64,000 nucleotides of DNA from Porphyra umbilicalis (taxonomy: Eukaryota; Rhodophyta; Bangiophyceae; Bangiales; Bangiaceae): the NCBI GenBank assembly GCA_002049455.2, contig KV918839.1, positions 186,001 through 250,000 of the forward strand. The letters run 5' to 3'. Shown piece by piece: positions 8,203 through 64,000 of this stretch. A program made the position numbers and the translations under genes. Positions within the stretch are counted from its first letter, which is position 1; every line of letters starts with the position of its first letter. A model generated the notes under the pieces. That model searched no databases. It was not told where the DNA came from and saw only the letters and a program-made list of their open reading frames with translations.

Positions 8203-8302
8203 ACTGGAGAAGCATTTCCGTCCCTTCCTCTTTGCTCCGGGTCGGACTTGTCCTCTGTGTCTCTGCGAGTCTGTAAGTGCGTTAGTACCGCGCTGTGAGA
8301 GA

Positions 8303-27224: not shown

Positions 27225-27399
27225 GGGTGGGGGCAAAAAAGGGGCAGCGGGACCACGACCAGGGGGGGGAGGACGGGCGACTGGGAGGAGGCAGTGGGCG
27301 GCGGGGACCACGGTGGCCACAGCGGCGGCTGCCTGCTACGGCCCTGCAGCGGTGAGCATCGCCTTCGCGACCGCCTCTGGCACCGCCGGCGGCGTCGCG

Positions 27400-35226: not shown

Positions 35227-35340
35227 GATCGTTCTGCGTATCGTGATAAGAACTGTCTTGAAGTGGGAGTAAGATCATCCTGAGGATCGTGCTCAGGACT
35301 GTCCTGGCGTCGGAGTACAATCATCCTGGGGACCGTCGTC
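35227..35340. repeat. 46-bp tandem repeat, about 2.5 copies
   Basis: GATCRTYCTGMGKATCGTG-type units start at 35227, 35273 and 35319; the last is partial. Copies have diverged. Inside the TA-flanked element. Confidence 0.75.
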
Positions 35341-35746
35341 ATAGATGGAGTGAACGAGTGCGCAATATTGATCTAGATTCCTGTCTCAAGGACTCGATCG
35401 TAGATGATAGCCTGGACTACTTCGAGTGACGTCGTGAGGAGGGTCTGCCGAACCCGATCAGAAAGCAAGACCTGCCCATGGGGCGTCGCTCCTGGGCCTC
35501 GAAACGTGTGCAGAGGGAGCCTCAATGTGACTTGGTAGTCGTGCGACCGACACGCTGTTTCCCGGCGCAGAGGGGATGGGAACTGGGTAAACATGCGTCG
35601 GCTCGCACATCGAGAATACCGTGAAGTCCCGGACGCACCCAGTCCCGATTTATGAATGATTGGGTCTCCCACACGCGCAGTAAATTCGTCCTTAGCTCAG
35701 TGGCAATCTCGTCCCCTATCGTCCTAACTCAGCAGGTCCCGAACTC

Positions 35747-35812
35747 GCAATGCCCCGGTTCAATACTCGCAATGCCCCGGTTCAATACTCGCAATCCCCC
35801 GACTCAATACGT
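35747..35812. repeat. 22-bp tandem repeat, three copies
   Basis: CTCGCAATGCCCCGGTTCAATA-like unit three times in a row. The third copy carries three substitutions. Confidence 0.85.
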
Positions 35813-36458
35813 ATCAGATGCACTCGCACCACAGACTCAAGCGCATGAGCGATATGTCAGATTCCACGATGGGCATTGGTCTAAGCGGAGAGAGTGTCAA
35901 AAGGATTTTGTTCACACTGTTGACGGTATAGGAAGACATTTTGTTTGCGGAAGAGGCAGTCAGACTATCAGTTGAACAAGTTCTCACATTTTTTCGAATG
36001 ACAGTCCCCGAGATGATCTGTGGGTCAGGATGGCACTGCTTCTGGAACGATCCCAGAATCAGTCCCGAAGATGATCCGTTGATCGAATCCAGAAACTGTA
36101 GTGATGAACTGCCGAACCACAGAGGTCACTCGAGAATCAGGCAATCTGAAATTTCGGATTTTCGCTGATCCACGGAACTGTTGTGCACATGATCCTCCGA
36201 ATCATGCTGAGGCCATCTCACAAAAACTTTGCATGGCCATCTCAAAACATTCTTTCGGGTCTACTCGTTATAGATTTACAAGCCGGCAAATTTAGAACTA
36301 TCCCGGCGATGAAATTCCGACCCGCAGTGTGTCAGGGGCTGTTCTGGAATCACAGTGGGACCGAGTGGGTCACATTACATTATCGGACCGTTGCAGAAGG
36401 CCAGTGGGCCGAGAGAAAAAGAAAAACCCGCCATGTCTCATTTTTGGGACACGCACGA

Positions 36459-42381: not shown

Positions 42382-45118
42382 CTATAGGGTCCCCACCACA
42401 GCTTCCATCGCTCCTGCCGGCGCGTAGTAGCGGACGCCATCAGCGCTTTTGAAGCAGTCAATACCGAACCGCGTGGCCGGGCAACCGCTTCGGCCAGCCC
42501 GGTCCTCCGTAGATTTCACCCGAGCCACGTAGGCGAACGCCCGCGCCCTTCCATCGACAAACACCAACGCGTAGTGCAGCACGGCGCCGTACGTTGTGAC
42601 AGGCACGTCTACGACCCGACCATCTCGCCGCCGCCTCCTTTCGGTGGAATCAATTCGCAGAAGGTAATTTCTTCGGCGGTGCTCGATAGAGTCCGACCCC
42701 ATCGGCTTCGATCCCGCAATTTTAACGCTGGTCAGCTTGAGTAGGAAGCACTTCATGGCCAGGATGGAGGTGGGCACCTCGTCGACCCCTTCCGCCGCAA
42801 GAGCTGCTCGCATGGCGGTGAGCTCCGCGCCGGTGAGCTGCATCTCTTTGCAGCGAGGTGGCAGCAACGAAATTGTCCAGCGCCACTCGTCCCCTGCATC
42901 ACCAGCCGGAAGACGCACGCACCCACGCGGGGCGGTATCGCGCCTCGGTGACTTGCCGGTGGCGGCAGCCCACTCAGCCGGCAGATGGTTCTGCCCAAAC
43001 GAGGACACCAGCTCAGCCTGAACACGCCGCGTCACAGCATTGGTGAGGTTGGCACTCGGGTGTGAGTGGGAGTGGATGAGGGTGCCCAACTCCCCTATCT
43101 TGCGCTCAGCGGGGAATTGCCAGGACGCCCACGCCGGCCCGCACGCACGCATACTGGGAACAATGTCCAGTACTGCCGCGATGACCGACCTGCAGAGCGG
43201 CAAGTGATCGTAGGTGCCGCGGTAAACGTTGGTGTAGTACAAGTGGACAAAGCGCTTCAGTCGCGCTTCCACTGTGAGCAGCTCAGGCGATGATATGCCC
43301 CGGGGACGGAAGAGGACCCGGCAGGCCTTGCACAGCGCCATGAGCATCTCGTAGTACAAGTCCGGAATTCGACCAACAAGTTGGACTTTTGCAACAGCAG
43401 ATGCATGACGTCGTACGGTGCAGCCGCTGGCCCAATGCTCCACAGGTGCGTCAAATGAGGATATGCCGCCCGCATCTCGTCAGACGGGGCAAAGAACAAA
43501 GAGCGTCCTTTGATTCCCGACTTCTTCGAGAGCCCAGTCTGGTACGCCACGGAGCGTCCAGTCGCTCGGGCCTCCTCAATTGCATCCGCATCCCGCTGGA
43601 AACTCTCGGCAGACCGCCGCGGCACAGTGCATTCGCTGATGGAGAATAGCACATCTCCGTTGGTTGGGTCCACCGGCGGGAAGTAGTGGTGGTTGCTGGC
43701 CGCGTGGTACACGCCATGAAATTCAGGCGCCCGACTTGGCGAATATCCGTTATACCCCGTGGCATTCAACAGAATATCGAACGCCGACATGTCGGCCGTA
43801 AATTGAAGGACGTGCGCCCGCAAAGTACAAGGCTCGGAAGACCCAGCAACTCGAACGCCCGGAATTCCTGGCGCCAGTCGACTCAGCTCATCAGCCAATG
43901 GGTGGAAGAACGACTCCAGGTCCACAGGTTGTCGCGGACCAGGAGTAATGGCCACGACAATCTGGCAGATGTTACGCGTCCGTACACCTGGGGACAGGTT
44001 AAGTACGGTCACGATAATCGGCCAGCCCTGAAATCCTCGTTGGCGCCACGCCTCAAAGCCGTCCGTAGACACACTCAGAGCTATGTCGGTATCTTCATCG
44101 AAGAGTCCCGCGCGCAACGCATCGAGAAAAGTCAGGCCGTCGTACCAGTCGTACAGACCCTCCCTCTGCGTGCCGTCTGAGTTTGTGGCAGCCGCACCCC
44201 GTGCTTCCTTCACGCTGGCCCTCATGTCAGGACCCAGAACTGGGTCACTGAGCATGTTGATGAGCCATGCAGTCAGGGGCCAGTACGTCATTTGGCGCGC
44301 AGGGCGCCCGCTTGCCGTGTACCGAGCAGTACCACAGGCGTCACAAGACGTCAGGAGCGACCGCTTGTGTGTGAATGCCACGCACCCATTCAGACAGCAG
44401 TCCACTTGGCGCTTCTCGACGTTCACGCTCGCCTCGATGAACGTTCGCATGAGAAACGGAGTTCGGTACTTTGCTTGGCATCCGCTCAGCTTAAGCAGAT
44501 CCGCAAATGCGTCTTCCGTAAGCCCATGGTTCACAGCGGAAGTGAACAGCGCGAAGTCGTTGACACACTCACCAAATTGAGCCACCGGCAGCTGCACCTC
44601 ATTGGAGCTGACAGCGTCCTGCATGACCGGCTCCGGTGGCCAAATGAGATCCACAGCTTCGGCAACGTGCTCAGCGGGGTCCTCCACGACAAAAGCTGCT
44701 GGCGGCACAGTTGTGGAGTCGTCAGACTTCACATCTGTGCTCGCCATGCTGCTTCTATCGTCATCATCAGCCTGACCCACATCTTGGTCGGCACGAAGGG
44801 GACTATCCTCGCTGCGAGCAGCGGCCCCGTCTTCAGCCGTGCGGTCAGGTCCTGATGGACAATCCTCTCGCGCACCCCCCCCCCCCACCCCTCAAGGCCC
44901 CCAGACGGAGCAGCCCGAGACCCTGCCCCGTCCGTGCCCGTGTTATCTCCAGCGGGGCCACCGGCAAGGCCACCGCTGATGACACTACCTGTTGACAACC
45001 GACGTCTTTTGGACTGCTGATGCAAAAACCAGGTCCGCCTGGATACCATACAGGGAGGCTCTTCGCCGTTCGCGGTACAGTCATTGCAGTGGCAAAGACG
45101 GCCGGTGTCAGAAGGCAT
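42382..45118 (-). CDS. TNP2-like transposase of the CACTA element (two frame changes)
   Basis: Start at MPSDTGRLCHCNDCTANGE (ATG 45118), with the CxCxxC...RRTWFLHQ N-terminus typical of TNP2 proteins. After a 14-nt C run at about 44.88 kb the frame changes. The core then shows a CLNGCVAF...CDACG cluster, IALSVSTDGFEAWRQRGFQG and WPIIVTVLNLSPGVRTRN, with TPGPRQPVDLESFFHPLADE and PYDVMHLLL, the hallmarks of the Transposase_21/tnp2 family. Near 43.39 kb a second frame change joins to VQLVGRIPDLYYEMLMALCK, and the C-terminal domain (FPAERKIGELGTLIHSHSHP) follows to the stop at 42382. The first change may be a homopolymer artefact. With both, this copy would be inactive unless spliced. Function: excision and insertion of the element via the TIRs. 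Confidence 0.85.
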
Positions 45119-45354: not shown

Positions 45355-45608
45355 ACAGGTCGTCGGCTTCTCGCCCAATGAAAGACGGGTAAGCCATCGG
45401 CGAGAATCCAATCAACATGCGCAAATTTCTTCGATTGCAGTAGAGGGCTGCGCGGCCCTGGCGTCGTGGAAATGGATGAAGACTGGGGATCTCGCTTCGC
45501 TGACCCGCGATTTTCTGGCACCCTGTCAGTCCACTAGCCGTGAAGCTCCACTGCGAGTGGGGTCGCACTGAAGGGTCGGGTCAACCCGCGATTTTGGGTC
45601 CAAAACCG

Positions 45609-45636
45609 CGATATCGCGGGTTTATTTCTTGTAGGG
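45609..45636 (-). repeat. CACTA right terminal inverted repeat
   Basis: Read on the minus strand it begins CCCTACAAGAAATAAACCCG; pairs with 39491-39518. Confidence 0.85.
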
Positions 45637-46380
45637 CCGGCCGCCGCCGTCGCCGCTGCCGCCCGCTGCCGCCCCCGTCGCTGTCCCCCGCTGCCGCCCC
45701 CGCCCCTTCCGGCCGCCACCGCCGCCCCCTGCCGCCGGCGCTTGTGCCTGCTGCTGCCACCGCCAGCTGCCGCCGCCGCCGCCGCCCCCAGATGCCGCCG
45801 CCACCGCTCCCGGCTACCACCGTCGCCGCCCCCGCCTGCCGCCACCGCCGCCCCCGCCTCCCGCCACAGCAGCCCACGCCTGCCGCCGCCCCCGCCCCCG
45901 CCGCCGCCGCCCTTGCCTCCGGCCGCCGCCGCAGTGGCTGCCGCCGCCGCTCCTGCCTGCCGCCGCCGCCGCCCCCGGCCACCACCGACGTCGCCTCCTG
46001 GTGCCGCCACCGCCGCCCCCGCCTGCCGCCATTGCCGCCCGGAGCCGCCGCTGCCGCCGTCCCTGCCGCCGCCACCGCTGCCTTCCGCCGCCGCCGCCCC
46101 CGGCCGCCGTTGCCGCCGCGCCCTGTCGCCGCCTCCCCTGCCGACGTAGCCCCCGCCTGTCGCCGCAGCCGGCCCCTGCCGCCGCCGCCCCTGCTTTCCG
46201 ACGTCGCAGCACCCTGCCGCCACCGCTTCTGCGTGCTGCTGGCGCCGCCGCGCCTGGCCGCCTCCGCCACCGTCCCCTCCCGCCGCCGCCGCCCCCGGCC
46301 GCTGCCCCCGTCGTTCTCAGCTACCTCCGCTGCCGCCCCCGGCCGCCGTCGCCTTCGGCCGCCTCTGCCGCCATGTCGGC
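45637..46380. repeat. CCG-rich array, right part (C-rich on plus strand)
   Basis: Same kind of interrupted CCG/CCCC/GCTGCCGCC repeat and same strand orientation as 38280-39490. The two parts are best seen as one ~1.95-kb array split by the CACTA insertion. Confidence 0.8.
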
Positions 46381-46414
46381 GGCTTTCGTCGCCAGCTGTT
46401 TTCGTAACTGCCAG

Positions 46415-47280
46415 CCCTGTGTTTCAGTAGTCCCGTCTTTTGGGCTCTACTGAGGGACTGTTACATTCCGGTTGCAGTGCCCTAAGACTTCTGGGCCATG
46501 GATGGGTATGGCAGGCTGGGGAGGTGGTGTCGGGTACCGGCCACTGTCACCTTTAGAGGGCAGAAACGGTATGAACGAAGCGTTTGTGCAGAAAAAGACC
46601 CACAATGCCGTGACCAGCGCCCTCTAAAAACCAAGAAATGGTCCTCTCCAAGAAAGTTGTGTTTTACTCATGTTTGGCTCAGAAGTGCTCGACGCACCTC
46701 ACACTTGGGGCAGGACTGCACAAGTGAAGGAGCGCATGAAGCAAATTCACCCAGCAGCTCTTTTTGTTTTCGCAGCTTGTCAGGAAGCACGCACAACATG
46801 GTGAGTGGTGCACAATGGTGTCTTTTCTTTGAAAAAACAATGGAAACTGCTGTAGGCAGGTAGGGAAGCGCAAAACGACGATTCCACTGGATTGGGCAGT
46901 GTCATCAGCCTGACGTGTGATCCACTGACTGACTGGACAAAGCAGTGTCAGCGGTGCTACCGAATACAGTGGTCAGGATGTGGCGACAGAGAGGGTCTGT
47001 CCCAATATGTCTTTCTTGTGCACACGCCACATTCACCACTCACGCCCGCTCGGCTACGACGCCCCGGTCGCCAGCAATACGCCCAGTCAGTACCCCGACT
47101 CCACCCCCACCCAGTATATCACCTCGTACCCTATCCAAACCGCGCTGCCCCCCCACCCAGTACCATGCTCTACCTTCACCTCAGTACCAATCCTCTCCCC
47201 TCTCCCCGTACCCCACCTCCTTCACCGCCCACGGCGACACCTCTTTGGCCAGCCCAATCCCCATGCCACTTGCAATGAGC
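46415..47280 (+). repeat. Left arm of a large inverted repeat
   Basis: Matches, in inverted orientation, 55866-56272 and then 50240-50877. A 31-nt stretch at 46426-46456 is identical to the complement of 56231-56261. The arm runs through the segment beginning ATGGATGGGTATGGCAGGCT and through GCTGCTGTAGGCAGGTAGGG-like sequence to CAATGAGCCT. It carries the empty sites corresponding to two insertions in the right arm (near 46800 and near 46965). A 121-codon open frame here (46498-46863) has a counterpart in the other arm, but it shows no domain and I do not call it a gene. Confidence 0.8.
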
Positions 47281-48177
47281 CTCCTCAATCATTGTCACCT
47301 AGTTTTAGACCGTGGCCGCCGTTCTCTTTCCCACTCAGCACCGACCCGCACATGGCATGTACGCCTTTGCAGCACCCACGTCCCAACGCTGAGAACCGAC
47401 CCCCCCACAATACCTACCACCCTGCAGTGCCCATCCCCACGCCACGCCCAGCACCTTATCATGTCGTCCACTCCTCTGCAACCACATTCTTCCCCCGCGC
47501 ACCACCTCAGCCGCGCACCCTGATCTACCCGTCTAAAAATAACCTGCCCCACAGGTCGCCCACCGTGTGAGGAACGCAGAGGGGTCGCAGGCGGACAGGA
47601 GGGGGGACGGCGACGGCGGCGGAGGTAGCAAGGATGGCGGGGGCTGGGACGCTAGCGCCGCTGCCGGTGGCGCGTGGAGCGGGAGTGCTGCCGGCCGAAG
47701 AATACTGGGGAAAGCGGAGGGGAGCGCACAAGAGGGGAGGTGACACGAAGACCTTATGAGGCAGCGGCAAGCACCCCAAACTGCGAGGGCAGACGCAGTC
47801 CAGTCACATGGACACGACTGTCACAAGGTCCTAAATACAAAACCAAGTACGTGGCGGCCCCCCCCAACCGGCGAGCCCGCTGACCCCCCCCCCCAGAAGC
47901 ACCGAAATTAGCCTCCCCCCCTTCCACGTGGAGCGCTCACGAGCCACCCCCACCCCCCCCCCCCAACTGCAGATTTTTGCAATGTGATCGGAGGTAGTAT
48001 TTGACATTCTCGATCACGTACCGTTTTTTGGTGCGTGAGGGGGGCGGGGGGGGGCGGCCTGTGCGCGCGCCACGTGGGGGGATTCAGGGAGCGCGTGGGT
48101 GGTGGTTTGGTGGGGGGGCTAGCACTTTTTGAATTCTGTCGATTTTGTGCCACGATGCGACCTCGTGCATTTTTGTA
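47281..48177. other. Spacer of the inverted repeat, left part
   Basis: No gene. Contains C runs near 47884-47970. A ~45-nt segment at 47993-48036 (CTCGATCACGTACCGTTTTT) recurs inverted at 57863-57906. Confidence 0.5.
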
Positions 48178-49226
48178 CAGGGGGGTTCCAAAAGTTTACG
48201 ATCGGATGGGCCATTCCGCCGAGGAACCAGGTCAACCAATCGACATCTGGTCTAGGAAAAGTGGCCTCTAGAAGCAGTTTATTGCGATTGACTTAGTGCT
48301 TGGTCGAGTGGCCACTCGCTACCGCCAGAGCCCCCACCCTCCGCGGCATGCCCTCCGACAAACCCGCAAAGAGAGAGTCAAGCAGACGGTCCCACTCCTC
48401 GCACAAGGCATCAAACAACATGTCCAACGTGGTGGGTGGCGTCGGGCGGGCACGCAGACGCCGCTCGAGGACGCTCCAAACGTTCTCAATCGGGCTCATG
48501 TCTGGACTCTGAGGAGTCCAGTCGACGCGCTCCAGTCCGTGCAAAGCCATGTAGAAGCGCACCGCACGAGCCCTGTGGGGCCCAGAGTTGTCGTCGAGCA
48601 GCTCGAAGTTGCTTGTCCCACCGTGCTTGGTCTCCACAAACGGGAGAAGGTGGTTGTGCAGAATGTCGATATACTTGTGTTGGTTCAAACGCCCCTCCAC
48701 GCGTACCAGGGGCGTCCTGCCGCGCGCAGAGAAGCCCCCCCACACCGACAGGCTCAGCCGACCCGACTTAAAGGATGGGCGGAGGCATGCGGGCAGGTAG
48801 CGCTCCGTCGGACGCCGCCAGACGTGTGCTTCGCCTCGCGCTAGCCGCACCGTAAAAGTGCTCTCGTCGGCAAAAGCAACCTTACCCCAGTCCTCGGGGG
48901 TCCAGCGGCGGCGGCGCCCAGCCGTCCCCTCGCGCCGAACCCGCGCGGCAATGGTCGCTACAGTGCTCAAAGGCAACTTGAGATGGGAGGCAATGAAGGC
49001 ATTGGAAAAAGATGAGTTTACCAAAACAGCTATAGCCGCCCGGGTGGCGGCGGGCACCTCCTTGGAGCCCTTGCGGCGCGGCATGGTTGCGACTGGGGAG
49101 GAAGACGACGAATCCCCCCCCCCCCCCCCCCCCCCTCAGTGGCATCGAATTGGGCGGATTTCCGGGGGTCGGGCGATCGTCTGAGCCTGGAAATCCGAGC
49201 GATCGTAAACTTTTGGAACCCCCCTG
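48178..49226 (-). mobile_element. Tc1-type DNA transposon with perfect 27-bp TIRs
   Basis: Ends are perfect 27-bp inverted repeats starting CAGGGGGGTTCCAAAAGTTT, at 48178-48204 and 49200-49226, and each abuts TA (48176-48177, 49227-49228). The element is 1049 bp and contains one transposase gene. A 20-odd-nt C run sits between the gene start and the right end. Perfect TIRs suggest a young insertion. Confidence 0.93.
48293..49084 (-). CDS. Tc1-family transposase with an internal deletion
   Basis: 263 aa, about 75-80 residues shorter than the usual ~340. The first helix-turn-helix is present (residues ~15-50, NAFIASHLKLPLSTVATIAA). Then RREGTAGRRRR joins directly to WTPEDWGKVAFADEST, so the second helix-turn-helix of the bipartite DNA-binding domain is missing while the frame is kept. 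The catalytic DD34E triad is intact: D73 (AFADEST), D165 (ELLDDNSGPH) and E200 (SPDMSPIENVW), with 34 residues between the last two. The catalytic fold could be made, but TIR recognition is probably impaired. It depends on or competes with a full-length relative. Confidence 0.88.
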   Translation of the reverse strand: MPRRKGSKEVPAATRAAIAVLVNSSFSNAFIASHLKLPLSTVATIAARVRREGTAGRRRRWTPEDWGKVAFADESTFTVRLARGEAHVWRRPTERYLPACLRPSFKSGRLSLSVWGGFSARGRTPLVRVEGRLNQHKYIDILHNHLLPFVETKHGGTSNFELLDDNSGPHRARAVRFYMALHGLERVDWTPQSPDMSPIENVWSVLERRLRARPTPPTTLDMLFDALCEEWDRLLDSLFAGLSEGMPRRVGALAVASGHSTKH

Positions 49227-49349
49227 TACTTGCAATGAAGCTCATGACCAGACATGACCGCCCCGACACCTGTGTCTGGCATCACGGTGATCCAGATGGG
49301 TGTTGGGCTGTCCTTCTCACTCAGCGGGGGGGATCTGCACTGTCACTGG

Positions 49350-50239
49350 GCGTGCACGAACTGCCGCCCCCGCCCTCGCCGCCGCCGCCACCGCCGCCCC
49401 CGCACCCGCTGCCCCCGCCGTCGCCGCCCCCGCCCACGCCTCTACACTCGCCGCCGCCCCCTCCGCCGCCGCCGCCCCCGCGGCTGCCGCCCCCGCCGCC
49501 GCTACCGCCCCCGCCACTGTCCGCGGCTCCCGCCACTGGCGCCTCCTCCGCCCCTGGCCGCCTCCCCCGCCGCCGCTACCGCCCCCGCCACTGTCCGCGG
49601 CTCCCGCCACTGGCGCCTCCTCCGCCCCTGGCCGCCTCCCCCGCCCGTGGCCGCCTCCTCCGCCCCTGGCCGCCTCCCCCGCCCCTGCCCGCCGCCCCCG
49701 CCGCTGGCCCCCGCCCCCCCCTCGGGCCGCCACGCCCGCTGCTGCCGCAGCCCCCGCCGCCGCCGCTGCTGCCGCCCCTGAACTCGGCCCCCGCCACTGG
49801 CACCGCCGCCGCCGCTGCCCGCTGCCTCCCCTGCTGCCGACGCCCCCGCCGCCGCCGTCGCCGCCGCCCATGGCCGCGGCCCCCACCCCCGCCGCCGCTC
49901 CCGCCCCTGTCTGCAGCCCCCGCCGCCGCCACCGCCCCCGCCCCCGCCTCTGCACTCGCCGCCGCCCCCGCCGCCGCCCCCGCCCCCGCGGCCGCAGCCT
50001 TCGCCGCCGCCACCGCCCCCGCCCCTGGACGCGGCCCCCGCCACTGGCGCCGCCGCCGCCGCTGGCCACTACCTCGCCTGTTGCCGCTGCCCCCGCCACC
50101 GCCGCCACCCCCGCTCTTGGCCGCGACGCCCGCCACCGCCGCCACCCCCGTCCCTGGCTGCAGCCCCCGCCGCCGCCGCCGCCCCAGCCCCTGGCCGCGG
50201 CTCCCGCCGCAGGCGCCGCTCCCGCCCCTGGCCGCCTCC
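49350..50239. repeat. CCG-rich array inside the inverted-repeat spacer
   Basis: Interrupted CCGCCGCCCC repeat, C-rich on the plus strand, bounded on the right by the inner end of the right arm. Translations in all frames are low-complexity and not called. Confidence 0.85.
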
Positions 50240-50877
50240 CCTCAGGCTCATTGGAGTGGCGTGGGTTTTGGGCTGGTGAAAAAGGTGTCGCCGTGGGTGG
50301 TGGAGGAGATGGGGTACGGGGTGAGGGGGGAGGATTGGTGCTGAGGCGCAGGTGGAGCATGGTACAGGGTGAGAGGGCAGCGAGGTTTGGGTATGGTCCG
50401 AGGTAGCAAACTGGATGGGGGTGGAATCGGGGTACTGACTGGGCGTGTTTCTGGCGACCGGGGCGTGTAGCCGAGCGGGCGCGGGGAGGTGAATGCGGCG
50501 TGTGCTCAAGAGAAACATCTTGGGACAGACCCTCCCTGTCGCCACATCCTGACCATTGTACTACTGTTTTCTGAGATTTGGCCCACTTGGACAGGAACAG
50601 GACTGGACCGAAACGTGATCTGATTGGTGCACGTCATTTTTCTGTTGCGCCCATTGGCCGAGGCGGCTGTTTCTGCCGATGTTGTTCTTGTTCGCATCGG
50701 CTAAAGTTCAGCGAACAGCAATATTCGGTAAGATCGCTGACACTGCATGGTCCAGTTGATCACACGTCTGTCTGATGACACTGCACAATCCAGTGGAATC
50801 GTTGGTTGCGCTTCCCTACCTGCCTACAGCAGCTCTCGTTGTGCTTTCACAAAAAAATTACCACTGCACATCACTAA
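50240..50877 (-). repeat. Right arm of the large inverted repeat, inner part
   Basis: Complementary to about 46803-47280 (shared CCAGCCCAA...CACGGCGACACC, AGTACCCCGA...CCACCC, GGTCAGGATGTGGCGACAG and GCTGTAGGCAGGTAGGGAAG). Relative to the left arm it has one 161-bp insertion (MITE 50561-50721). It ends at the left edge of the 5-kb Harbinger-like element and resumes at 55866. Confidence 0.8.
50561..50721. mobile_element. 161-bp MITE flanked by TA
   Basis: Ends CTACTGTTTTCTGAGATTTG and (inverted) TTGCTGTTCGCTGAACTTTA match imperfectly, and TA flanks both sides. The other arm of the large inverted repeat has the uninterrupted site CCGAATACAGTGG near 46960, so the insertion and its TA duplication are directly visible. 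A ~50-nt part resembles 52282-52330. Confidence 0.8.
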
Positions 50878-52449
50878 GAGCATTCCCACCAATGTCGGGC
50901 CAACGGTCTGAAACGGTGAAGTGAAACCGCTACGTGTGGCCCTGCGAGTGGTCAGTTGCCAACGGGCCAACGCGTTGCCAACGGGCAATGTAATGGGTGA
51001 AACAGAGTGGGCTACCTTTCAAAGATCTGAGCGCCGTTGGCCTCGACGTTGTTGGCCGCACTGCGTGGTTGCCAACGGAGGACACGTATCAGCGTCGTCG
51101 CCAGTATCGAAATGAAGAGACGTCCGTCGAATACGTGCCGAAGATGTCACGGAAAGCGTGTGAACGGAGCCCAAACCGCCCAAATCAAGGCAATCTTGCA
51201 AGACACGTGGAGGCCATTCGGTACCAATATGGATTGAATCCGCACGAGTGCGCGACGTGTGTTGCGGTCGCACCCCGTCAGGTTGTGCAAGGACTTCGAG
51301 GCTGAGTCATGCCGGTCAAACGGTCACGTGCAGCTATCGTGGCCTGCCCATTTGCGCAAAGGAGTGGCCCAAGAGCTGTCTACGTGCCCCCCTCTACTGT
51401 GTGCATCCCACTCTTTGCTGACTGGGGCGGTTTCAAAGGAGCTGGCACGCCCGCTCTCAGGGCCGTGCTGCCCCAAAAAGGCCAAGGCTCGGCCAGAAAG
51501 GGTCAATAGAGGGCAGCGACCCACAGCCAGGGACTTTTGAGTGCGTTTTTGTGCACTTGTGTGGCTGCCCCCTACTGTTGTGGGCACTGCAGGCAGTTGT
51601 CATCGTGGAAGCGTTGACAGCTCAGGAAGCAGGCTGACTGCACAGCCGTGCACTGGCTCGCCAACGCATGAACGTTGACACCGGCATTCACAGTCCCCCC
51701 TCCAGCCCAACCTCAGCCACACTTCCAACAACGCCACTAGCCCACACCCAGCCCCCCACCCCCGACCCACCCCGAACCCTTTTAACCCTGCCCCCACGTC
51801 CACCCGAGCACCCTCACCAAGCTGCAGCAGCAACACGCGCTAGCCAGCCAGCGATGCGCGCACCCTGCCTGCGCCGCCCGCTGACCCGGCCCGCGCGACA
51901 CTCCCCCCAGGTTTCTCACCCTCGCAGAAGCAACGCAGAAGCGACCTGGAGGCCGGGGTACATACCGCCCACAGCTCCAGACAGGGGGCGGCGGACCCCT
52001 GCGCACGGTGGACAGCACCGGGCGGTGGCCACCTCCAGCGGGCGCGACCACAGAGGCACGCGGGCGTGATTGCTCTTGGCGACATTACCACTTCAGCTCT
52101 CGGCGGCCACCAGCACGCGCCGCTCGGTCGCCGCCGGCCTTGTGTCCTCTGTGGTACAACTCTCGCTGTAGCGCACTTGCTGTGTGGGGAATTGCTGTTG
52201 CATGAAAATTTGCAGACCTTGATAGCAAAACGCCCAGAGCAGAACATTGTTTGAGTGGTTCTCTGCTGGATTCCGGCCATGTCATTGGCCAAGGCAGCTG
52301 TTCTGGCGCAATTATTATTGTTTGTATCGGAAAAATTTCTCAAGCGAGCAACTCCACCGCACAGGCTCGAGCTGTGTGGTGGGATTTTCAAAAATACAAT
52401 AATTGCGGGGAGGCTGCCACCGTACGTTGACTCCGAAGAAGCTACCGCG

Positions 52450-55260
52450 GCAGCCACCTCACAAAGTCGGAGACTGGATGGGGATGCCGTGGGGAGGGCG
52501 GGGCTGGCCGCGGACGGTGGGGCTGGCGGCGGGTTTGGTGGGACAGGTCGGTGGGGATAGTGGGTGCGGCGGGCAACGGCAGCGGGGGGCACAGCGCGGG
52601 CACCCTCTGCGGCAAAGGGGGTTTCGAGGGACGGTAGCGGGGGTGATAGGCCTGCGGAGGACGGCGGCGGGAGCTGTGGGGCCGCGGGAAACAGACGACG
52701 GTGAGGGCGGCGGCGGGCGCCGCGGCCGACGGCGGCTGGGGTGGAGAGGGCCCCTGCGGCGAGGGCGGCGGCCTAACCTGGCGGGCGTGCCGTTGGCGGC
52801 GGGCGGGGTGGCGGAGGACGGCGGCGGGGGCGGCGGCGGGTCGTGGGGCAACAGCGGCGGCGGCGGCTTGGGGGGCGCCGGCCGATGGCGGTGGGCTGGC
52901 GTGGTGAGCTGCGGCGGTTGCTGGTGGCGGCTGGGATGGAGGCGGTGGGAGCAGGGGGGGGGGGTGCGGCACAAGGTGGAGTCGGCGGGGCCGGCAAGGG
53001 CGGTGGCGGGCGACGTCAAGGGCTGTGGCGGCGAGCGTGGTGGCCGGCGACGGCGGCCGAGGCCGCAGGGGCGGGGGCGGCTGCCTGCGGTGGCGGCGGG
53101 GGCGACGGGGGTGGCGGTACGCAGTGGCGGTGGAGGCGGCGACGGCGTCGGCGGCAGTAAGCGTCGGCGGGGGGGGCGGCGACGGGAGGGGCGGCTGACG
53201 GTGGCGACGTGGGGCGCGGACGGCGCCGGCGTGGACAAGGGCGGCGTCGCGGGCTGCTGTCGGCTGGGGCAGCGACGGCGGGGGCGGCTGTCAGCGGTGG
53301 CGGGCGCGGCGGCGACGGCCGGGGCGGCGGTGGGGCGGCGGCAGACGACGGCAGTTCGGGCGGCGGCGGCTGGGGGGAGGGGGGCCGCCGTGGCGGAGGT
53401 GGCGGTGGTGTCCGCCGTCTGCGGCGACGGCGGCGGTGGTGGGACCGGCCGACGTCGGTGGCGGTGGCGGGGGCTCGGGGGAAGCAGCGGCGGCTCTCAG
53501 CGATGGCGGTGACGCTGGTGGGGAGGGCGGGGGCGGCTATCGGCCGTGGCGGCTGCGAGGGCGCGGGCGGGGTCGGCGGTCAAAAGCGCCAATGACGGCG
53601 GGGGCCGCGGTAGTCGGCGGGTGCGGGGCGGGAGCCGGCGGTCGGCAGCGGCTGTGGCGGTGGCGGTCGTTGTCGGTGGCACTTCAGGGGGCGTGGGAGG
53701 GGAGGGCGATCGGCCGGGTCGGCGGCGAGAGCGGCTGCGGAGCGTGCATCGGTCGGCGGCTGCGGCCGGCGGGGGCGGACGGCAACGACGGCGACTGGGT
53801 CGGACGGCGACGACGGGGACGGGAGCGGGGGAGAAGTTGGTGGTCGACTGGGCCGGCGGTCGGCGAGAGTGGTGGCGGCGGAAGTCGGCGGCGGCGGGGT
53901 GGGCGGCGACAGTGGGGGCGGAGGTCGGAGCCGGCGGCGGGGAGGGCGAGCGGCGACGGTCGGGACGGAGGCGTCGGCGGTCGGCGGCGGCGGGGGCGGC
54001 GGCGGGCGCGGCGATGGTGGGGGCGGCCGTCGCCGACCGCGGGCACTGCGGCGGTGGCGCGGAAGGCGGTCGGCCGAAGCGGCGGTCGGCGGGGGCGGCG
54101 GCGGCGGTGGTCGGCGGCGGCAGGGGATGCAGCGACGGCGGGGGCAGCGGTGGGGGCGGCAGTGGGGGCGGCAGTGGGGGGGCCAGCTGAAGACGCCGGC
54201 GCCGGTCGCGGCGGCGCCGGCGGTCGACAGCGGCGGGGGAGGGGACGGCGGCGGCGGGAGGGGCGGCGGCAGCAGGCGGAATGGGCAAGGGAGGCGGCGG
54301 CGGCCGACGATGGCGGCGGCATCGGGTTTAGCGGGGGCGGCGGCCGCAGATACCCGCGGTGGCGGCCGACGGTGGCGGGGGCGGCGAGGGAGGGGCGGGC
54401 GGTGGCTGGCGGCGGCGGCGGTGAGGGCGGCGGCGGTGGCGGCTGCGGACGACGGCGGCGAGGGGGGGCGGCGACAGCGGGGGTGGCGGTCGGACGCGAT
54501 TGCGCTGGGGGCGGGGACGGCGGGGCCGGCTGTCGGAGGTGGCGGCGGGGGGGGCGAGCGGCGACGGTCAGGACGGGGGCGGCGGCGGTCGGCAGCGGTG
54601 GCGGGGGCGGCGACGGCGGGGGCGGCCGTCGTTAACGGCGGGGACCGGGGCGGCGGGCCAGCGGCAGACGGCGCCGGCGGCCGACAGTGGCGGGTGCAGG
54701 GACGACGTCGGCGGGAGGAGCGGCGACAGTACGCGGCATGGGCAGAGGAGGCGGGGGCGGCCGATAACGGCGACGGCAGCAGGGTCACCTGAGGCGGCGG
54801 CGGCGGACACCGGCAGTGGCGGCCGACGGCGGTGGGGACGGCGGGGGAGGGGCGGCCGGCGCCTGGCGGCGGCGGCGGTGAGGGCTGCGGTGGTGGCGGC
54901 CGCGGACGGCGGCGGGGGAGCGAGGGGCGGAGGCCGACGTCGGCGGTGGAGAGGCGGGCGGCGGTCTCGGGGACGGCGGGGCCGTCGGCGACCGGCAGCC
55001 GCGAGGGCGGTGGCAGCCGGGGGGGGCGCGGCCGACGGCGGTGGGGGCGGCCAGGACGGCCGGGGTTGCGGTGGGTGGGGTGGGGGCGGCGACCGTCGGC
55101 GTGCGGGGGTCGCTGGTGCTGTGCCGGCGGTGGTCAGGGCGGCCGTGGGCACTGTCGTGGGCCACCGCCACTGCCGTGCGGTGCGGGAGGGGGGGGGAGG
55201 GCACGCACCGGCGCTGGCCACGGCCGCCACGCGGGCACGCGTGGCGGCATGAGCAGCCGC
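52450..55260. repeat. 2.8-kb GGC-rich array inside the Harbinger-like element
   Basis: Interrupted GGCGGCGGGGGCGG and GACGGCGGC repeats, strongly G-rich on the plus strand with dense G runs. Very long open frames on both strands (up to ~400 codons) are Gly/Arg plus and Pro/Ala minus and follow from the repeat. Confidence 0.85.
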
Positions 55261-55614
55261 GTCGCTGCCTGAAGAGGGCCTGACGCGGGGCCGCTCGGCG
55301 CAGCCCCGCCTCGTGTGCCTCCTCATCAGCGCCGATCCTCTTGTTTTCCCAGTGTCAGTGTCAACGCGCCGCGTGTCTGATGGGCCGTTCGGCCACGCGC
55401 CACCGCATGATTGATACGTGACACGCTCCAACGATCGGGACCATTGGGCCGAGCTGACAGGCAGCCGCCCAGTTCCGAGAGGTACCATATTTCATCCGTG
55501 GGTAGCTGTCGAAACAAAGGTATGATAAATCGGACAATCTGAGGCCAATATGAAGTGCCACTTGTCACTCATTTAACCCCGTGAAACCGCGATGGACCAA
55601 TCAGAGCACAGAAC

Positions 55615-55685
55615 CCGTTGGCCCCAGGGCCAACGAGTTGCCAACGGAGCCTCCGTTGGCAACTCGTTGGGCCTGGGGCCAACGG
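55615..55685. repeat. Palindrome with 35-bp arms
   Basis: The left arm CCGTTGGCCCCAGGGCCAAC... (55615-55649) is complementary to the right arm (55651-55685) with one mismatch and a 1-nt spacer, so it could extrude a cruciform. It lies 180 bp inside the right end of the Harbinger-like element, preceded by CCAATCAGAG. Confidence 0.9.
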
Positions 55686-55865
55686 CTCCGACGCCGAATC
55701 GGACGCAAGTACATTCGCGTTTTAACTCGCTTGACCTCCGTTGGCAACGCCGCGTGCACGTTCGACATTGTTACCCGCCCCGAGAACTGGCCAACGGCGA
55801 ATTTGAGACACGTTTCTGCAACGTGTGCCCAATATGGCGTTGGCCCGACATTGGTGGGAATGCTC

Positions 55866-56272
55866 TAACAAGGTTATGTATGCTTCCTGACCAGCTGCGA
55901 AAAGAAAAGGTGCTGCTGAGTGCACTTGCTTCACGCGTTCCTTCACTTGTGCATGCACAGGACTGCATGCAGTCCAGCTCACATCGGAGGTACGTCGAGC
56001 ACTTCTGGGACAAACACGAGCAAAACACAAATTTCTTGGAGAGGATCCTTGTTGGGTCTTTGAAGGGCGCTGGTTACGGCATTGTGGGTCTTTTTGTGCA
56101 CAAACACTTCTTTCATACCGTTTCTGCCCTCCAAAGGTATCAGTCACCAGTACCCGACACCACCTCCCCAGCCTGCCATTCCCATCCATACCCCAGACGT
56201 TTTAGCGCACTGCCACCGGCATGTACCAGCCCCTCAGTAGAGCCCAAAAGACGGGACTACTACCATCACAGG
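55866..56272 (-). repeat. Right arm of the large inverted repeat, outer part
   Basis: Complementary to about 46415-46800. Continuation of the arm after the Harbinger-like insertion; similarity stops after GACGGGACTACTACCATCACAGG. Confidence 0.8.
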
Positions 56273-56689
56273 AAGCCTAGAGGACGTCCTTTGCCACGTA
56301 CTTTCCCCAGACCTCCCCAGCTATGGGCACGAGCTACCTACAGAGGTCCCAAGCTATCAAAGTACTCTGAGCCACTCCGGAAGTTGTGTACACCCCCTGC
56401 AAGGAATGTATCCATGGTATGCCGCCCCCCCACCGATGTGTATACGGCAACTTAACGATTGCTCCTTCCGGCTACGGAAGGCAACAAAGTCATGTGGCGG
56501 TCAACAACACACTTTTCAAGGTGCGTTTACACATGGAGTAGCTCAGAGACTGTGCGGGCTCCATAGAAGTCGCCAGGGAAAAGTACAACACGACATTATA
56601 CCCCCCCCAACTGACCACACCAAACCAGCCCAGTACCCCGACGGCACCTGCCCCCGTCCGCCCGAGTCAGGGGGAAGTGGTAGGGACAA
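56273..56689. other. Short spacer, no gene
   Basis: No ORF or motif supported. Confidence 0.4.
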
Positions 56690-57560
56690 AAGGCACCCAC
56701 CTGTGGCGCGAGCCGCCGCCAGGGCGGCGCCAACGAACGGCTGCAGCAGCCGCCGCGCGGACGGCAGCAGCCGGTGGCAGCGGCAGCCGGTGGTGGCGGC
56801 GGCGGCAGGCGGCGGCGGCAGGCGGCGGCAGCAGAGGCTGTGGCGGCAGAGGTGGTGGCCGGGGGCCGCGGTGGCGGCACGCAAGGGCGGTGGTGGCAGG
56901 GGGCGGGGGCGGCGGCAGCAGGAAGCGGCGGCAGGGGGCAGCGGCGGCGGCGGTGGCGGCACGAGGCCGCGGCGGTGGCACGCAGGGGAGGCGGCGGCAC
57001 GGGACGGCGGCCGCGGTGGCGGCGGCAGAAGGCGGCAGCGGTGACACGCAGGGGCGGCGGCGGTAGAAGGCAATGGCGACAGCGGCAGCGGCGGCAGAAG
57101 GCCGTGGCGGTGGTAGCAGCGGCGGCGGAGGCCGCAAATGGCGGCGACGGCAGTCAGGGAGGGCGGCGGCAGGAGGAAGCGACGGCTCCGGCAGCGGGAC
57201 GGGGCGGCGGCGGCGGCAGCGGCGGCAGGGGTTGGCCGGAGAGAGGGCGGAAGGGGTGGCGGCGGCGGCGGGGGCGGCGGGGGCGGGGGCGGGGGCGACG
57301 GCAGCGGCGAGGGCGGCGGGGGCAGCGGCGGCGGGGGCGGCGGCTGCGGCGGCGGGCCGCGGGGGCGGGGGCGGAGGCAAGGTCAGGGGCGGCGGGGGCG
57401 GCGCGAGGGCGGCGCGGGCGGGGGCGGCGGCGGCGGGGGCGGGGGCGGCGGGGGCGGGGGCGGGGGCGGGGGCGGGGGTGGGGGCGGCGGGCCGCGGGGG
57501 CGGGGGCGGGGACGGGGGCAGGGGCGGCCGGGTCTGGGCCGGCGCGGGCGCGGTGGCGAT
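56690..57560. repeat. GGC-rich array (G-rich on plus strand)
   Basis: Interrupted GGCGGC/GGGGGC repeats with nearly pure (GGGGGC)n from about 57420 to 57520. It lies outside the right arm as the C-rich array lies outside the left arm, so the pair has mirrored strand asymmetry. Confidence 0.85.
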
Positions 57561-58390
57561 GGCGGTGGCGTGGTCGTCGTGCCCGTCATGACGGTCACGG
57601 TTTACACCCGCAGGCGAGGCCTGTTGGTGGGGTCGTGTGTAGTAGCGTAGGTGGGGGGGCAGTCATGGATTCTGGTCATGCCCGGTCACGCCCACGGTGC
57701 GGTGATTACTCATACACGCGTGCATCCGAGGAGGGTAGGTAAGTATCGAGCTGGGCACGTGGCACTATTGGGTGTCGTGGCAGGCCGGGCCGAGGAGCGG
57801 GCCCGGGCGCGGCCGGGCGCGGCCCGCTGGCCGGGCGCCGAGCGCTGAGAGCGCGTCTCCGCACCAAAAAACGGTACGTGATCGAGACTTCCAGATACTA
57901 TTGTTGTCCCTGACGCGATTCTGGATCAACGACGCCCCAAGTGGATCACCAGAATCGTCGATTCCAGCTTGTTTGCCCATTGCTTTTTCTCCCCACGAAC
58001 GCCGTTGCCTCGATATATAGCCGAACAGGGGATAAACATACCTGCAGGAAGCTCTAGGGAAGACGCTTCTTTTGGTGCCAGTTGCACTCGTAGGCTCGAA
58101 AAAAAAGGGCAGTGATCGATGGGTTGAGCGCACATAGCGCATATCAGCGTCGAAGTGCCCGAAACATTACGGATCAAGTGGATCGATCGGGATCAAGCTC
58201 GCACCAGGTGGTGGCAGTCTGCGAGCGCGCGCGCTTTCTCGCGGCAGCGTCGGCCATTGTCTCTCAGCCGACAGGCAAAGCGACAGTCCCGCCAGCCGCA
58301 CCCTCCCGCTCCAACCTTCGCTCCCGCTCGGTCCTCCCCACTTGCCCAACCTCCTCACTTGCCAAGCAGCGGCTCAACATGAAACGTGTA
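57561..58390. other. Intergenic, no gene
   Basis: Contains a copy (57863-57906, inverted) of the segment at 47993-48036. Nothing coding supported. Confidence 0.4.
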
Positions 58391-60687
58391 TTGCTGATGT
58401 CTCAATTTTGTCCTCTCCGGACAAGAACATCAGTTCCCTGGCCTTTAGGACAGGGTGCTCTCAAAGTGTAGTGATGCACACATATACTTAGATCAAGGGA
58501 CTTGATCTTCGTTTCAGAGGTGGCAGGTTGCATTCGTGTCCTCAGGGATCTGAGGGCGTGTCAGTGTTTGAAGGGTCGCGATGACGCTAAAAGCGAATGG
58601 AGTTACGTGGCTGAGAAGGACTGTCCTGCCACAGGGGTCACATGGCCCGGACGGCGCCTGCCCCCCAGCCCCCCCCACCGCCCCGAGTTGCGTGCGGCGA
58701 CCGCGCGCAGCGACTTCCGAGGTTCAACGCGCCCACGATGACCCGCGGGTGATCGCGCCTGCGCGCGGCTTTTGTTGCGGCGGCTCGTCGGCGAGATCTG
58801 AAGCCATCTAGCTAGCGGCGCGGTTAGAGGCGCCCCGTCGCGCGGCGGTCGGTCCCACCCGCCCGCCCGTGCGCCGTGTCGACCGCCCCGCCCGCCCTGC
58901 GCAGGTGCGCTGCGCGGCAGAGTGACGGTCCCTCCCGTTGGCGTCGCGCGACGCCGGCGCCGCCGCGCTGCGGTGGCAGCGGCGGCCCCAATTTCCCGCC
59001 CCACGCCCCCCCCGCCACGGAAACGTGGCTGTACGCGCCCCCATGCGCGCTCGCGGCTATGGAGCCGGCCTGCGTGCCCGGTGTCAGTGCGTCGCCGAGC
59101 GCGCCTCTGCCCTGAAGGCCAGGGTATTGCACGCACGTGCCTGGAATATGCTCATGTACAACTGTGAGGACTCCGAAGTACGGAATGACTGTCAATAAGG
59201 ACGAATTCAAAGTACATTTGAGGACAGACTGTTCGAAAGCTGTGTCGGCTTTGGATAATTGTATCATGGCCGGTGCCTTCATGCCCCTGTAACGCGCGAT
59301 TTGGTTGGAAATCCGCTCCGAAAGTCTGAAGGAGAACGCTCGGAGCTGGACAGCTGCGCACCTCTCTCGTCCCGACCTTCGCATCTCAGCTGATTCTCCG
59401 CGGATCGGTCGGTCTGGCACTTCCGGTGGGACAATTCGCACCTCTGGGCGCCGGAACCGACTGTGGATCGCCGCGGATTGCCCGCGATCCCCGAGTAACG
59501 GCAGGAAACAGCCGGGACCGACTGGCCTTCTTGGGTGTTGCGCAACAGGCCGGCGAACAGAACAGACGATCTTTATTGTGATTCTCACAAAAACTGGACC
59601 TCGGTGCATCAGCTTCCGTTGCAAAATCACTGTTTCATTGGCTCAGGGGGCGGTTCATGATGCTGAAGCGGATGTTGCGGATCCAGTTTTTGTGAGAAGC
59701 ACAATACAGTTCTCTATCATCTGATTGACTGCAACGCAAGAGCCTTGCACGAAAGATTCGATCGCTGGTTGGCCATGCGGTCCCTTCGACGCGCCTTCGT
59801 CTTCGTCGCCGACTTCAGCCTGATGCACGTTGCTAGGTGCGACACAGGGGTGATCATGTTCGTGGTGCGGTAGCAGAGGGGGGAATGCAGCCTGCTTAAG
59901 GGGAGTCTATCCGAAGTGCGGGGAAGAATACAATACCTCTGCGCGTACTCTTTATTTGTAAAACATCCAAGCACACGCCATATTGGTACTCTGGCCCCTC
60001 GTCCCCGACTGCCGCCCCCCTCCGACGAAGCCTCCTCCGTGCTGTCAGGGAAAAAATACATGCGTGAAGGACGCCGCTGGGCTACGCCCTATGCTCCACT
60101 CTGTATGGATGACGAGTAGGTGGGAGGCAAGCAGGGAGTATCGGGCGGGGACGGAGAGACATGTCGGAGGGCGCGATGCAGGCCCGCCACAGTACCGGAT
60201 CACAAAAGGAAGCACGGAGGATGTCACCAGGAAAATGCTTTAACAAAGGCAGAGTGATGCTGGCATAAAGATACAAAATCACCACGGGAGGCATCCAGCC
60301 CCTGCATTCCTGGTCATCACCCCACGCCCCTCACACCCCTCCAGTGTGACCTTCCCCCGACCCCCCGGCCACCCCTCTCGGAAACGGCTCACACATAGAC
60401 GCTCACGTACCCGAGAGATTGCCAGCACAGCACGGAGCACCGGCGCGAAGCGAGACGACGGTGGCGGGCACCACGACGACGGGCCGACGGTGCTGACGAC
60501 GGTCGTGGCCGACGGTCGGGGTGGCACCAACCGTTTTGATGCGCTCAGACAATTTCAATTAACAGTCGACTTCAGCATGAAAAGTGTGCGGAGAACTCCT
60601 TGTCAAGTACGCAGTTAACAACATTTTCCAAGTTTTAAAGAGCACTGTTGTTCTTGTCCGGAGAGGACAAAATTGGGACATCAGCAA
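58391..60687. mobile_element. Non-autonomous TA-flanked DNA transposon, 2.3 kb
   Basis: Inverted ends of about 42 bp begin TTGCTGATGTCYCAATTTTG and continue TCCTCTCCGGACAAGAACA with two or three differences. TA precedes the left end (58389-58390) and follows the right end (60688-60689). No transposase; internal frames are short or GC-rich. A 129-bp MITE is nested inside (59576-59704). Best explained as a Tc1/mariner-type non-autonomous element; its first bases resemble one end of the 161-bp MITE at 50561. Confidence 0.8.
59576..59704. mobile_element. 129-bp MITE flanked by TA
   Basis: Ends TTGTGATTCTCACAAAAACT (then GGA) and the inverted TTGTGCTTCTCACAAAAACT match at 22 of 23 positions, with TA on both sides (59574-59575, 59705-59706). 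Stowaway-like by size and target site. Confidence 0.85.
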
Positions 60688-60993: not shown

Positions 60994-61273
60994 CGGCCCG
61001 GCTTGGCAGGCGCAGACGCCGGCACGGCGCGCGTCTTGATCGACTGCCGTCGGGGCTTGCGCAACGTTTATCGGCCGCCGCCGCGCAAGCCGTGCCCACG
61101 ACGGGCGCTCCCAGGGGACGCCGCGCCCTCCTTGACCGCGCCCCCCAACCTTGGTGGCAGCCGGCTGCGTTGCCGGTGGCGCCACCCCCGGCGTCCTTGC
61201 CACCCCCTTCTCCCCTGCAGACGCCCGTCGCTCCGTGGTGGCCCGACCGTCGGCGCCCCCCCCCCCCCCCACC

Positions 61274-64000
61274 ATGGGCCTCTTTCTTTCCCAATCCCGC
61301 GGCCTCGCCGCCCGCTCGTGGCACTACCAAAAGCGGCAGACGGGGGTCAATGTGTGCCAGTTTATCATCTCCCCCCTGCTGCTCGTCCTCCTCGCCCTCC
61401 TCGCCAAGGTCTTTCGCGAAAAGCCCGAAACGGTGCCGGCCTACGCCACCGCCGTCGCTGGCGGCTTTGCGCCCGCTTTTGTGCGCCCCGACGTGTGTAC
61501 GGAAAACCTGGCGGCGTTGCGGTCGGGGGTGTGTAATGCGTCGCCCTTCCAGCCGCGCCCGCTGGAGGTGCCGGTCCTCGACGCCACCCGCGGCGGCGGC
61601 GGGGCGGACGTCGGGTCGGTGTTTTACGAGGCGTGCACGGCCGCCGAGGTCGAGGCGCTGCCGGCCGCGTGCCTCGCTGTGGGGAACGGACCCAACGCGC
61701 CGGCGGCCAACAGCAGCGGCTTGCTCAGCGGCTGGTCGATCGGCCCCGCCGTCTACCCCGGGCTGCTCGACGACGGGCCGGACTCGTTTAGCCAAACGCA
61801 AACGCCCTATGACGGGGTGCTGCTCCAGCTGTTCAAAGGGAACCGCACTGACCCCCGCTACGTGGGGCTGCTGGGGGCGTCGCGCGCGGGGATTGTCGAC
61901 ACCCTCTACGGCACCCGCTCGCGGGGCTTCACGGACCGCTCTGCGTTTTACCGTTTGATGTACGACGCGCCCGAGTCGGGCCGCCCCTTTCCGGCATTCC
62001 CCACTGCCCTGGCCATTGATGAATACACTGGTGGCGGCTCTGCCGGCGTGACGCCGCCGTCGACTGAGGCCATTGCGGTCCGCGCGACGGTGCTCTACAA
62101 CATTAGCGAGACGAACAACTGCACGGAGGAGTGCCCGCTCGTCGCGGGCATCTCGTCGCTAACCGACGCGGTCATGAAGGACGCGCTCGGCGCCTCCTCG
62201 TCGGCGGCCGTCTACCTCCGCCGTTTCCCCGACACGGGGTCGGTCTCCCAAGTCGAATTTATCGAGTTGGCGATTGGCATTACGCTCGCGTTGCTCTTTC
62301 ACTTTCTCCTTCCAGGCTTCATGCGTATGCTCGTGTACGAGCGCTCTGCGGGGCTGCGGCAGATGATGCAGATGCACGGCCTGCGGACGAGTCACTACTG
62401 GGTCGTCACCTACCTCGGCTTTTATGCGCAATACGTGCTTGCGGCGGTGCTCTTGGCGATTGTCGGCTTTGCCGCCCGTATTGCCTTCTTCCTAGAGACC
62501 TCTCCACTGGTGCGTTTTCGGGAGGGGGAGGGGAGGGGGGACGGTGGGGGCAAAACGACGACGTTGTGACGGGCGGGGTGCGACGTTGCGCGGGCCTGCG
62601 CGGTGGGCCTGTGGTTGGCAGAGGCGATGCCTCGCCACTTGTTTTTGTGCCGTACGACTGACAGAGTGCTGACCTGTGGCTGGTGAGTGTCTGACATGTA
62701 TCGTGTGGGTGTCGGTGCTTGACGATGACCTCTTTTGTGTGCTGGCGGACGACTCTTCGACTGCTTTGTTGTTGCTGGTGCACGTGGGACAGGCCTACGC
62801 GCCGCTGTTTTTCCTGTGGGGCCACACGATGATTGCGCTGGCCATGGTCCTCGCGCCCTGGTTCTCCTCCCCCGAGACGGCGCTCATCGCTGGCTGGTTT
62901 GCAGTCATCCTCATCTCCCTGATGGGGGGACCCTACCTCGGCACCCTGTTCACGTACGTTGGGTGGTGGTGGGTGCGGCCTCGTTCCGGGTCGACTTGCG
63001 GCCGGCGTCGCTCGTTTTCCTGACCCGTGCGCAGGGATTTGTTAGCCCCGTGTGTCGGTGGTGTCGGGTGACCGGTTCGATGTGCGGAGGGTTCGATGTT
63101 GACCCGTCGCTTCCTCATCCCCGTGTCACACTTCGTTTTGCCTGTCTCGAGCGGCTCCGTTATTGGTTTGGCGGGTTTCCCCCTCTCAGGTCCGACACCG
63201 GGGACTCCCTCTTCAACGCCGTCAGCCTGCTCCCTTCCTTTGCATTCATGCGTGCCGTCTATCACGCGGCCGCCTTTACCGCTGGCGGGCACGGCGTAAC
63301 TCTTTCCGAAGGCGAGTACGCGGGGACGCCCCTCGGCATGTGCCGCGGGGATGGCCCCTTTTGCACCGTCTTTATCTTCCTCATTGGCCAGTGGGCGGTG
63401 CTTCTGGTGGCGGGGTTGTACCTCGACCGGGTCCTACCAGGATCGGGATCCATCCGGGAGCATCCGCTCTTCTTTTTGGGCGTCGAGCGAGGCGCCGGCT
63501 GGCGGGTGTTGCCGTCCCAGCGGCGGGCGGACGCGAGCGCCGCCGCGGCGATGGCGGGCGTCGTCAAGCCGGGCGCGGATGTGGGAACGTCCGAGTCAGA
63601 CGAGGAGGCCGCTCGGGGGATCGCAGCGCACCATGCCGAGGCCGACGACGTGGCGGAGGAGCGGGTACGAGCGGCAGCGCTCGGCGATGGGAGCACCGGC
63701 GTGGTGCTTCACGACCTCGTCAAGGTCTACCCGGGCACCCCGCCCAAGCGAGCGGTCGACGGCTTGTCACTGGCGGTCGCGCAGGATTCCGTCTTTGGGG
63801 TGCTCGGGGCCAACGGCGCCGGAAAATCGTCGACGATTGCGGTGTTGACGGGGCTGGCATCGCCGACGGCCGGGCAGGTGTGGATGAACGGCGTCAACAC
63901 CGTGTCGGACGTGCGAGGCGTCCACCGGGGGCTCGGCGTGTGCCCGCAACACGACGTGCTGTGGGGGACGCTGACGGGGGAGGAGCACCTCACCCTTTAT
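61274..64000 (+). CDS. ABC subfamily A transporter, 5' part (three exons visible)
   Basis: Start MGLFLSQSRG in a CCACCATGGG context. Exon 1 is 61274-62509, intron 1 GTGCGT...GACAG (62510-62792), exon 2 62793-62953, intron 2 GTACGT...CTCAG (62954-63189), and exon 3 from 63190 past the window edge; all junctions keep frame. An N-terminal membrane segment at residues 28-47 is followed by a ~300-residue non-membrane loop with N-glycosylation-type sites and paired Cys. Then come membrane helices with the cytoplasmic LVYERSAGLRQMMQMHGLRT motif typical of ABCA proteins, further helices in exons 2 and 3, an acidic linker (ADVGTSESDEEAARG), and a nucleotide-binding domain with Walker A GANGAGKSST (~63.81 kb) and Q-loop VCPQHDVLWGTLTGEEHLTL. 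The signature and Walker B motifs lie beyond the window. The family moves lipids across membranes; the substrate is unknown here. Confidence 0.93.

Follow-up and report, generated by a model that had tools for sequence, protein, structure and literature searches.

Within the 64,000-nucleotide stretch of DNA analyzed here (the window), a large inverted repeat preserves the order in which its parts were assembled. Its two arms are diverged inverted copies of one sequence, and the right arm is interrupted by a 4,988-bp element flanked by TAA and by a 161-bp MITE flanked by TA. Both insertions postdate the arms, since the arms rejoin gap-free at the two corresponding empty sites in the left arm. 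This confirms the observation made in a preliminary description of the DNA and supports its reading. A third insertion, absent from that description, is a 1,049-bp Tc1/mariner-like element in the spacer. The inverted repeat itself has about an even chance of being the remains of a non-autonomous, foldback-like DNA transposon with long terminal inverted repeats (TIRs), later host to at least three cut-and-paste elements.

The arms rejoin once two insertions are removed

The left arm (46416-47282, plus strand) is uninterrupted, and the right arm (50244-56272, minus strand) is split by the two insertions. Self-BLAST paired the arms in three collinear pieces, all inverted: 46426-46805 with 56261-55865, 46804-46966 with 50875-50722, and 46965-47282 with 50560-50244. 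The breaks between these pieces coincide with the two proposed insertions. We joined the right arm after cutting out each insertion plus a single copy of its duplicated TAA or TA. The joined arms are identical at 733 of 853 aligned positions (K2P 0.157), with 68 transitions and 52 transversions making up the 120 differences, and the alignment contains no gap at either insertion site. It scores 1026, compared with 460 when the insertions are left unmasked and 33 for the best of 50 mononucleotide shuffles (run with joins 1-2 bases off). The arms had been described as diverged copies of one ~870-bp sequence, the right one split by the 4,988-bp element and the MITE, and as older than both; all of this is borne out, as the arms, rather than failing to rejoin, met without a gap when both insertions were removed at their exact borders. 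How far the arms have diverged does not date the first insertion, because a transposon's two ends may already differ before it inserts.

The empty-site logic applied here is standard, since related empty sites have already been used as evidence of mobility in the work described in PMC2213677. The RESite analysis of that source likewise takes a paralogous, insertion-free sequence as proof of insertion, whereas in the present case the two arms of a single inverted repeat supply the filled and the empty copy.

A profile search of the window (E up to 10) returned the arms themselves as its sole matches, and viral contigs contained no exact match to a 30-mer and a 21-mer pattern taken from the end of the arm. 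Internal tandem repeats in the TIRs are a feature of some foldback families; within the left arm (46416-47282), no tandem array reached a score of 50. On our reading of the alignment, no inverted or LTR-like ends are apparent within a single arm.

Two insertions in the right arm and their borders

Both empty sites had been reported to survive in the left arm and to give the exact borders of the insertions, a claim that holds fully for the MITE and in part for the larger element. The pre-insertion TA of the MITE is intact at 46965-46966 (plus strand; GAATACAGTGG), but the pre-insertion site of the 4,988-bp element, at 46802-46804 (plus strand), reads TGA, one base from the TTA that represents the duplicated target on that strand. 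We shifted the two borders of an insertion independently, by no more than 6 bp in either direction, giving 169 combinations per insertion, and the alignment score was never raised in either case. The ties for the MITE correspond precisely to the register shifts allowed by a 2-bp duplication. Seven solutions tied for the 4,988-bp element, and three of these, (-6,+4), (-4,-4) and (-2,0), are not TAA register shifts; its border thus rests on the TIRs and TAA together, not on the empty site alone. The duplications are as first described, with TAA on both sides of the 4,988 bp and TA on both sides of the 161 bp.

The 4,988-bp element (50878-55865) has 28-bp perfect TIRs (GAGCATTCCCACCAATGTCGGGCCAACG) and a GGC-rich filler, and lies between TAA copies at 50875-50877 and 55866-55868. 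It carries subterminal GTTGGC/GCCAAC motifs, which near its right end form a nearly perfect 71-bp palindrome (55615-55685); the stretch around it, 55600-55700, has a folding z of -12.94. Pfam scans at E up to 0.1 gave no match for any of the 16 open reading frames (ORFs) of at least 120 amino acids lying wholly inside the element, or for two ORFs running past its end. An exact pattern from the element's end had no match in viral contigs.

The 4,988-bp element could be a non-autonomous PIF/Harbinger-like element. As described in PMC2213677, PIF/Harbinger elements have TIRs of 14-25 bp and TTA or TAA duplications, with a G(N)5GTT motif in Medicago; the same source reports subterminal repeats, nested insertions and members that lack coding capacity. 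The TAA duplication and TIRs starting with G agree with that account. The TIRs here are longer, at 28 bp, and lack the Medicago motif, reading GAGCATTCCCACC..., and the IS5-like DDE transposase of PIF/Harbinger was not recognized in the element by Pfam.

The 161-bp MITE (50561-50721) is bounded by TA at 50559-50560 and 50722-50723. Its small size and its TA/TA duplication, with an empty site in the other arm, agree with a MITE. Its TIRs, of the TTGCTG type, are weak and imperfect: the two ends align with a score of only 17, which 39 of 2000 random window segments equaled or exceeded. The right end is more like the TIRs of a TA-flanked element of 2.3 kb located at 58391-60687 (score 28, reached by 2 of 2000 random window segments, which perhaps represent the place itself). 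The left end matches those TIRs less well, with scores of 20 and 18 that were reached by 6 and 26 of 2000 random segments, respectively.

The 2.3-kb element is bounded by near-identical inverted ends of 46 bp that are related to the MITE, and it contains a small inverted repeat of its own (59568-59712). Two of its ORFs, 58824-59630 and 58603-59136, had no Pfam match, and an exact pattern from its end had no match in viral contigs. A diverged, decayed MITE-like copy lies inside the 4,988-bp element at 52195-52350 (nhmmer E 5.5e-9), with no clear TA on either side. This copy is linked solely to the MITE, over its length, by nhmmer; its ends match those of the 2.3-kb element at background level (116 and 300 of 2000 random segments as high), and we rejected that connection.

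A Tc1/mariner-like element in the spacer

The third insertion occupies 48178-49226 on the minus strand, with 27-bp perfect TIRs and TA at 48176-48177 and 49227-49228. Since the spacer is present only once, this insertion has no empty site. It contains a 263-amino-acid transposase ORF (48293-49084, minus strand) that matches DDE_3 above the gathering score (E 2.2e-11) and aligns with Sleeping Beauty over residues 65-263 (E 1.2e-27), right up to where the Sleeping Beauty chain ends. The second aspartate, D165, and the glutamate, E200, are 35 residues apart, corresponding to DD34E spacing. The TA duplication, the DD34E signature and the alignment of the catalytic part with Sleeping Beauty all agree with a Tc1/mariner (IS630) affiliation. 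The IS630 profile itself was matched below its curated cut-off (43.2 of 100 bits) and only from profile position 145. The DNA-binding part thus looks truncated: ahead of the catalytic part there are about 67 residues, compared with 144 positions in the profile, or about half as many. With its perfect ends and open ORF, the element may be a copy of recent origin that has been shortened internally. In searches for relatives of this transposase, none of 3 candidate stretches in viral contigs and none of 41 in genome contigs was confirmed, and plasmids gave no match.

Elsewhere in the window, a second Tc1/IS630-like transposase ORF of 497 amino acids lies at 5357-6850 on the minus strand; it matches DDE_3, with IS630 again under the cut-off.

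Among the 11 overlapping spacer ORFs of at least 120 amino acids, we scanned 10 against Pfam (all except 48296-48844, which runs antisense within the Tc1-like element), and besides the transposase there was one sub-cut-off match, at E 0.07. Judged by these scans, the spacer appears to be filler without a recognized gene other than the inserted transposase. A foldback stretch, possibly a further MITE, also occupies 47885-48119 of the spacer (score 67, as high in 0 of 300 shuffles); pieces of it are found again at 57860-57900 and 38069-38095. Compared with each other, the two halves of the spacer score 28 in direct and 46 in inverted orientation. These values are not above those of the left half compared with four other CCG-rich tracts of the window, whose best-strand scores range from 44 to 54.

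Outer limits of the inverted repeat

The preliminary description placed the outer limits of the arms at 46415 and 56272. Homology is secure only from 46426 on the left and to 56261 on the right. The CCTGTG/CACAGG pair outside these points (to 46416 and 56272) was rejected as an extension of the arms, being at chance level, with 454 of 2000 random pairs reaching an equal score. We also rejected an inverted duplication reaching into the flanking CCG and GGC tracts: the flanks, 45400-46415 and 56273-56720, align with scores of 20 in inverted and 27 in direct orientation.

Just inside the secure limits, a TA at 46428-46429 is mirrored by a TA at 56258-56259. This pair is a possible target-site duplication, although a trivial one, as TA is its own complement. 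Under the TA reading, the inverted repeat spans 46430-56257, or 9,828 bp today; subtraction of the three insertions leaves 3,623 bp. Beyond the TA, we found no target-site duplication at the outer ends: the best direct match in the flanks is the 4-mer AGCC, and 97 of 300 random border pairs have a direct match of 5 or longer. One 7-bp flanking pair with one mismatch requires unmatched ends. Neither arm taken singly is flanked by a direct duplication longer than 4 bp.

The outermost 31 bp of the arms are identical. For a predetermined position, the probability of 31 consecutive matches is ~0.002 given the mean identity of the arms (calculated on the alignment with joins 1-2 bases off), but the probability of such a run anywhere in the arms is 0.31 with exact joins and 0.25 with joins 1-2 bases off. 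The latter alignment also contains a second run of 30 (p 0.04). A longest run with p 0.31 is not unusual, and we do not rely on greater conservation of the outer ends as evidence.

Two further candidate signatures of the ends were set aside. The arm end is no more like the TIRs of nearby TA elements than background, its scores being equaled by 55 to 393 of 500 random segments. A terminal hairpin was considered as a common mark of the TIR elements. The ends of the 2.3-kb element gave z values of -4.87 and -1.75, and the 4,988-bp element gave 0.20 on the left; an element at 34.4-36.5 kb, tested at one end, gave -3.01. The idea was dropped, as the end hairpins of the arms are weak, at only -1.27 and -1.23.

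The surrounding window

The element at 34442-36460 is likely another TIR element: its 38-bp inverted ends, which contain GTGTCCCAAAAATGAGACATG, are 89% identical and lie ~2 kb apart. An ORF at 43257-44888 (minus strand) matches an EnSpm/CACTA-type transposase (Transposase_21, tnp2). Long degenerate CCG/GGC tracts run beside and within several elements, at 45640-46189, 49363-50241, 53045-54915 and 56738-57570.

The window also holds sequences of other kinds. The single open frame at 8165-10474, with a VEFS-box and a sub-threshold match to the SUZ12 zinc finger, is predicted to be a Polycomb SUZ12-like gene. Pieces of a heavy-metal P-type ATPase lie on the minus strand at 23427-27320, with E1-E2 ATPase and hydrolase domains in 23427-25334 and HMA domains in 25590-27320. 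An ORF at 61151-62569 falls just below the cut-off for an ABC-2 transporter domain (30.7 of 31.6 bits). Scanning the window for Rfam families and tRNAs gave no matches. The SUZ12-like, EnSpm-type (tnp2) and Tc1-like coding regions indicate that the DNA is eukaryotic. The GC content of the window is 66.8%, which would fit the 64-67.9% given for Bangiales red algae in PMC7423979, although this agreement serves only as a lead.

Discussion

We consider it an even call that the inverted repeat began as a non-autonomous long-TIR transposon. In this model, an element of ~3.6 kb would have arrived first, by transposition. Its right arm would then have become a landing ground for the TAA-flanked 4,988-bp element and the TA-flanked MITE, and the TA-flanked Tc1-like element would have entered the spacer, presumably also after the inverted repeat was in place. 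The ~860-bp paired arms around a middle part point to such an origin, as do the mirrored outer TA with the identical outermost 31 bp, a spacer of filler with no recognized gene of its own, and the further TIR elements in the neighborhood. Against it stand the lack of a non-trivial target duplication, a 31-bp run that is not unusual in length, and the weak end hairpins; moreover, the window holds no second copy, the left arm has no tandem array, and the arm end is unlike the nearby TIRs.

The closest likeness is to Tetris, a foldback element of Drosophila virilis, which as described in PMC4079207 has long TIRs with a flanking domain of up to 866 bp and a non-coding middle part without a transposase of its own. 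According to the same source, Tetris TIRs hold ~220-bp tandem repeats and its target duplications are 8-10 bp, whereas the intact arm here has no tandem array and no such duplication was found at the outer ends.

A local inverted duplication of ~860 bp, arising through repair or template switching and followed by the same later insertions, is possible but somewhat unlikely. It would account for outer ends without a convincing target-site duplication, for the single occurrence in the window, and for the absence of any coding or end signature proving a transposon. It leaves the mirrored outer TA unexplained, though that is weak evidence, and the several TIR elements nearby provide a setting in which long-TIR elements would be expected.

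The long-TIR transposon reading can be narrowed to an undescribed TA-targeting family of a GC-rich eukaryote, with a body of C-rich and CCG-rich filler, mobilized by TA-targeting transposases of the same genome; in this specific form it is improbable. Least probable is that the arms are two independent, oppositely oriented insertions of one ~860-bp repeat family: the 120 differences between the arms, the unmatched sequence adjoining them, and spacer halves no more alike than the left half is to other CCG-rich tracts would all suit this origin, but neither arm has a direct duplication longer than 4 bp beside it or, on our reading of the alignment, inverted or LTR-like ends of its own.

Overall, the locus shows the ordinary nested-transposon anatomy of a repeat-rich genome and involves no new mechanism. 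By establishing, within one genome, where a TAA-flanked element and a TA-flanked MITE begin and end and which target bases each duplicated, it aids repeat annotation, and it yields a relative order of events for the inverted repeat and its two right-arm insertions.
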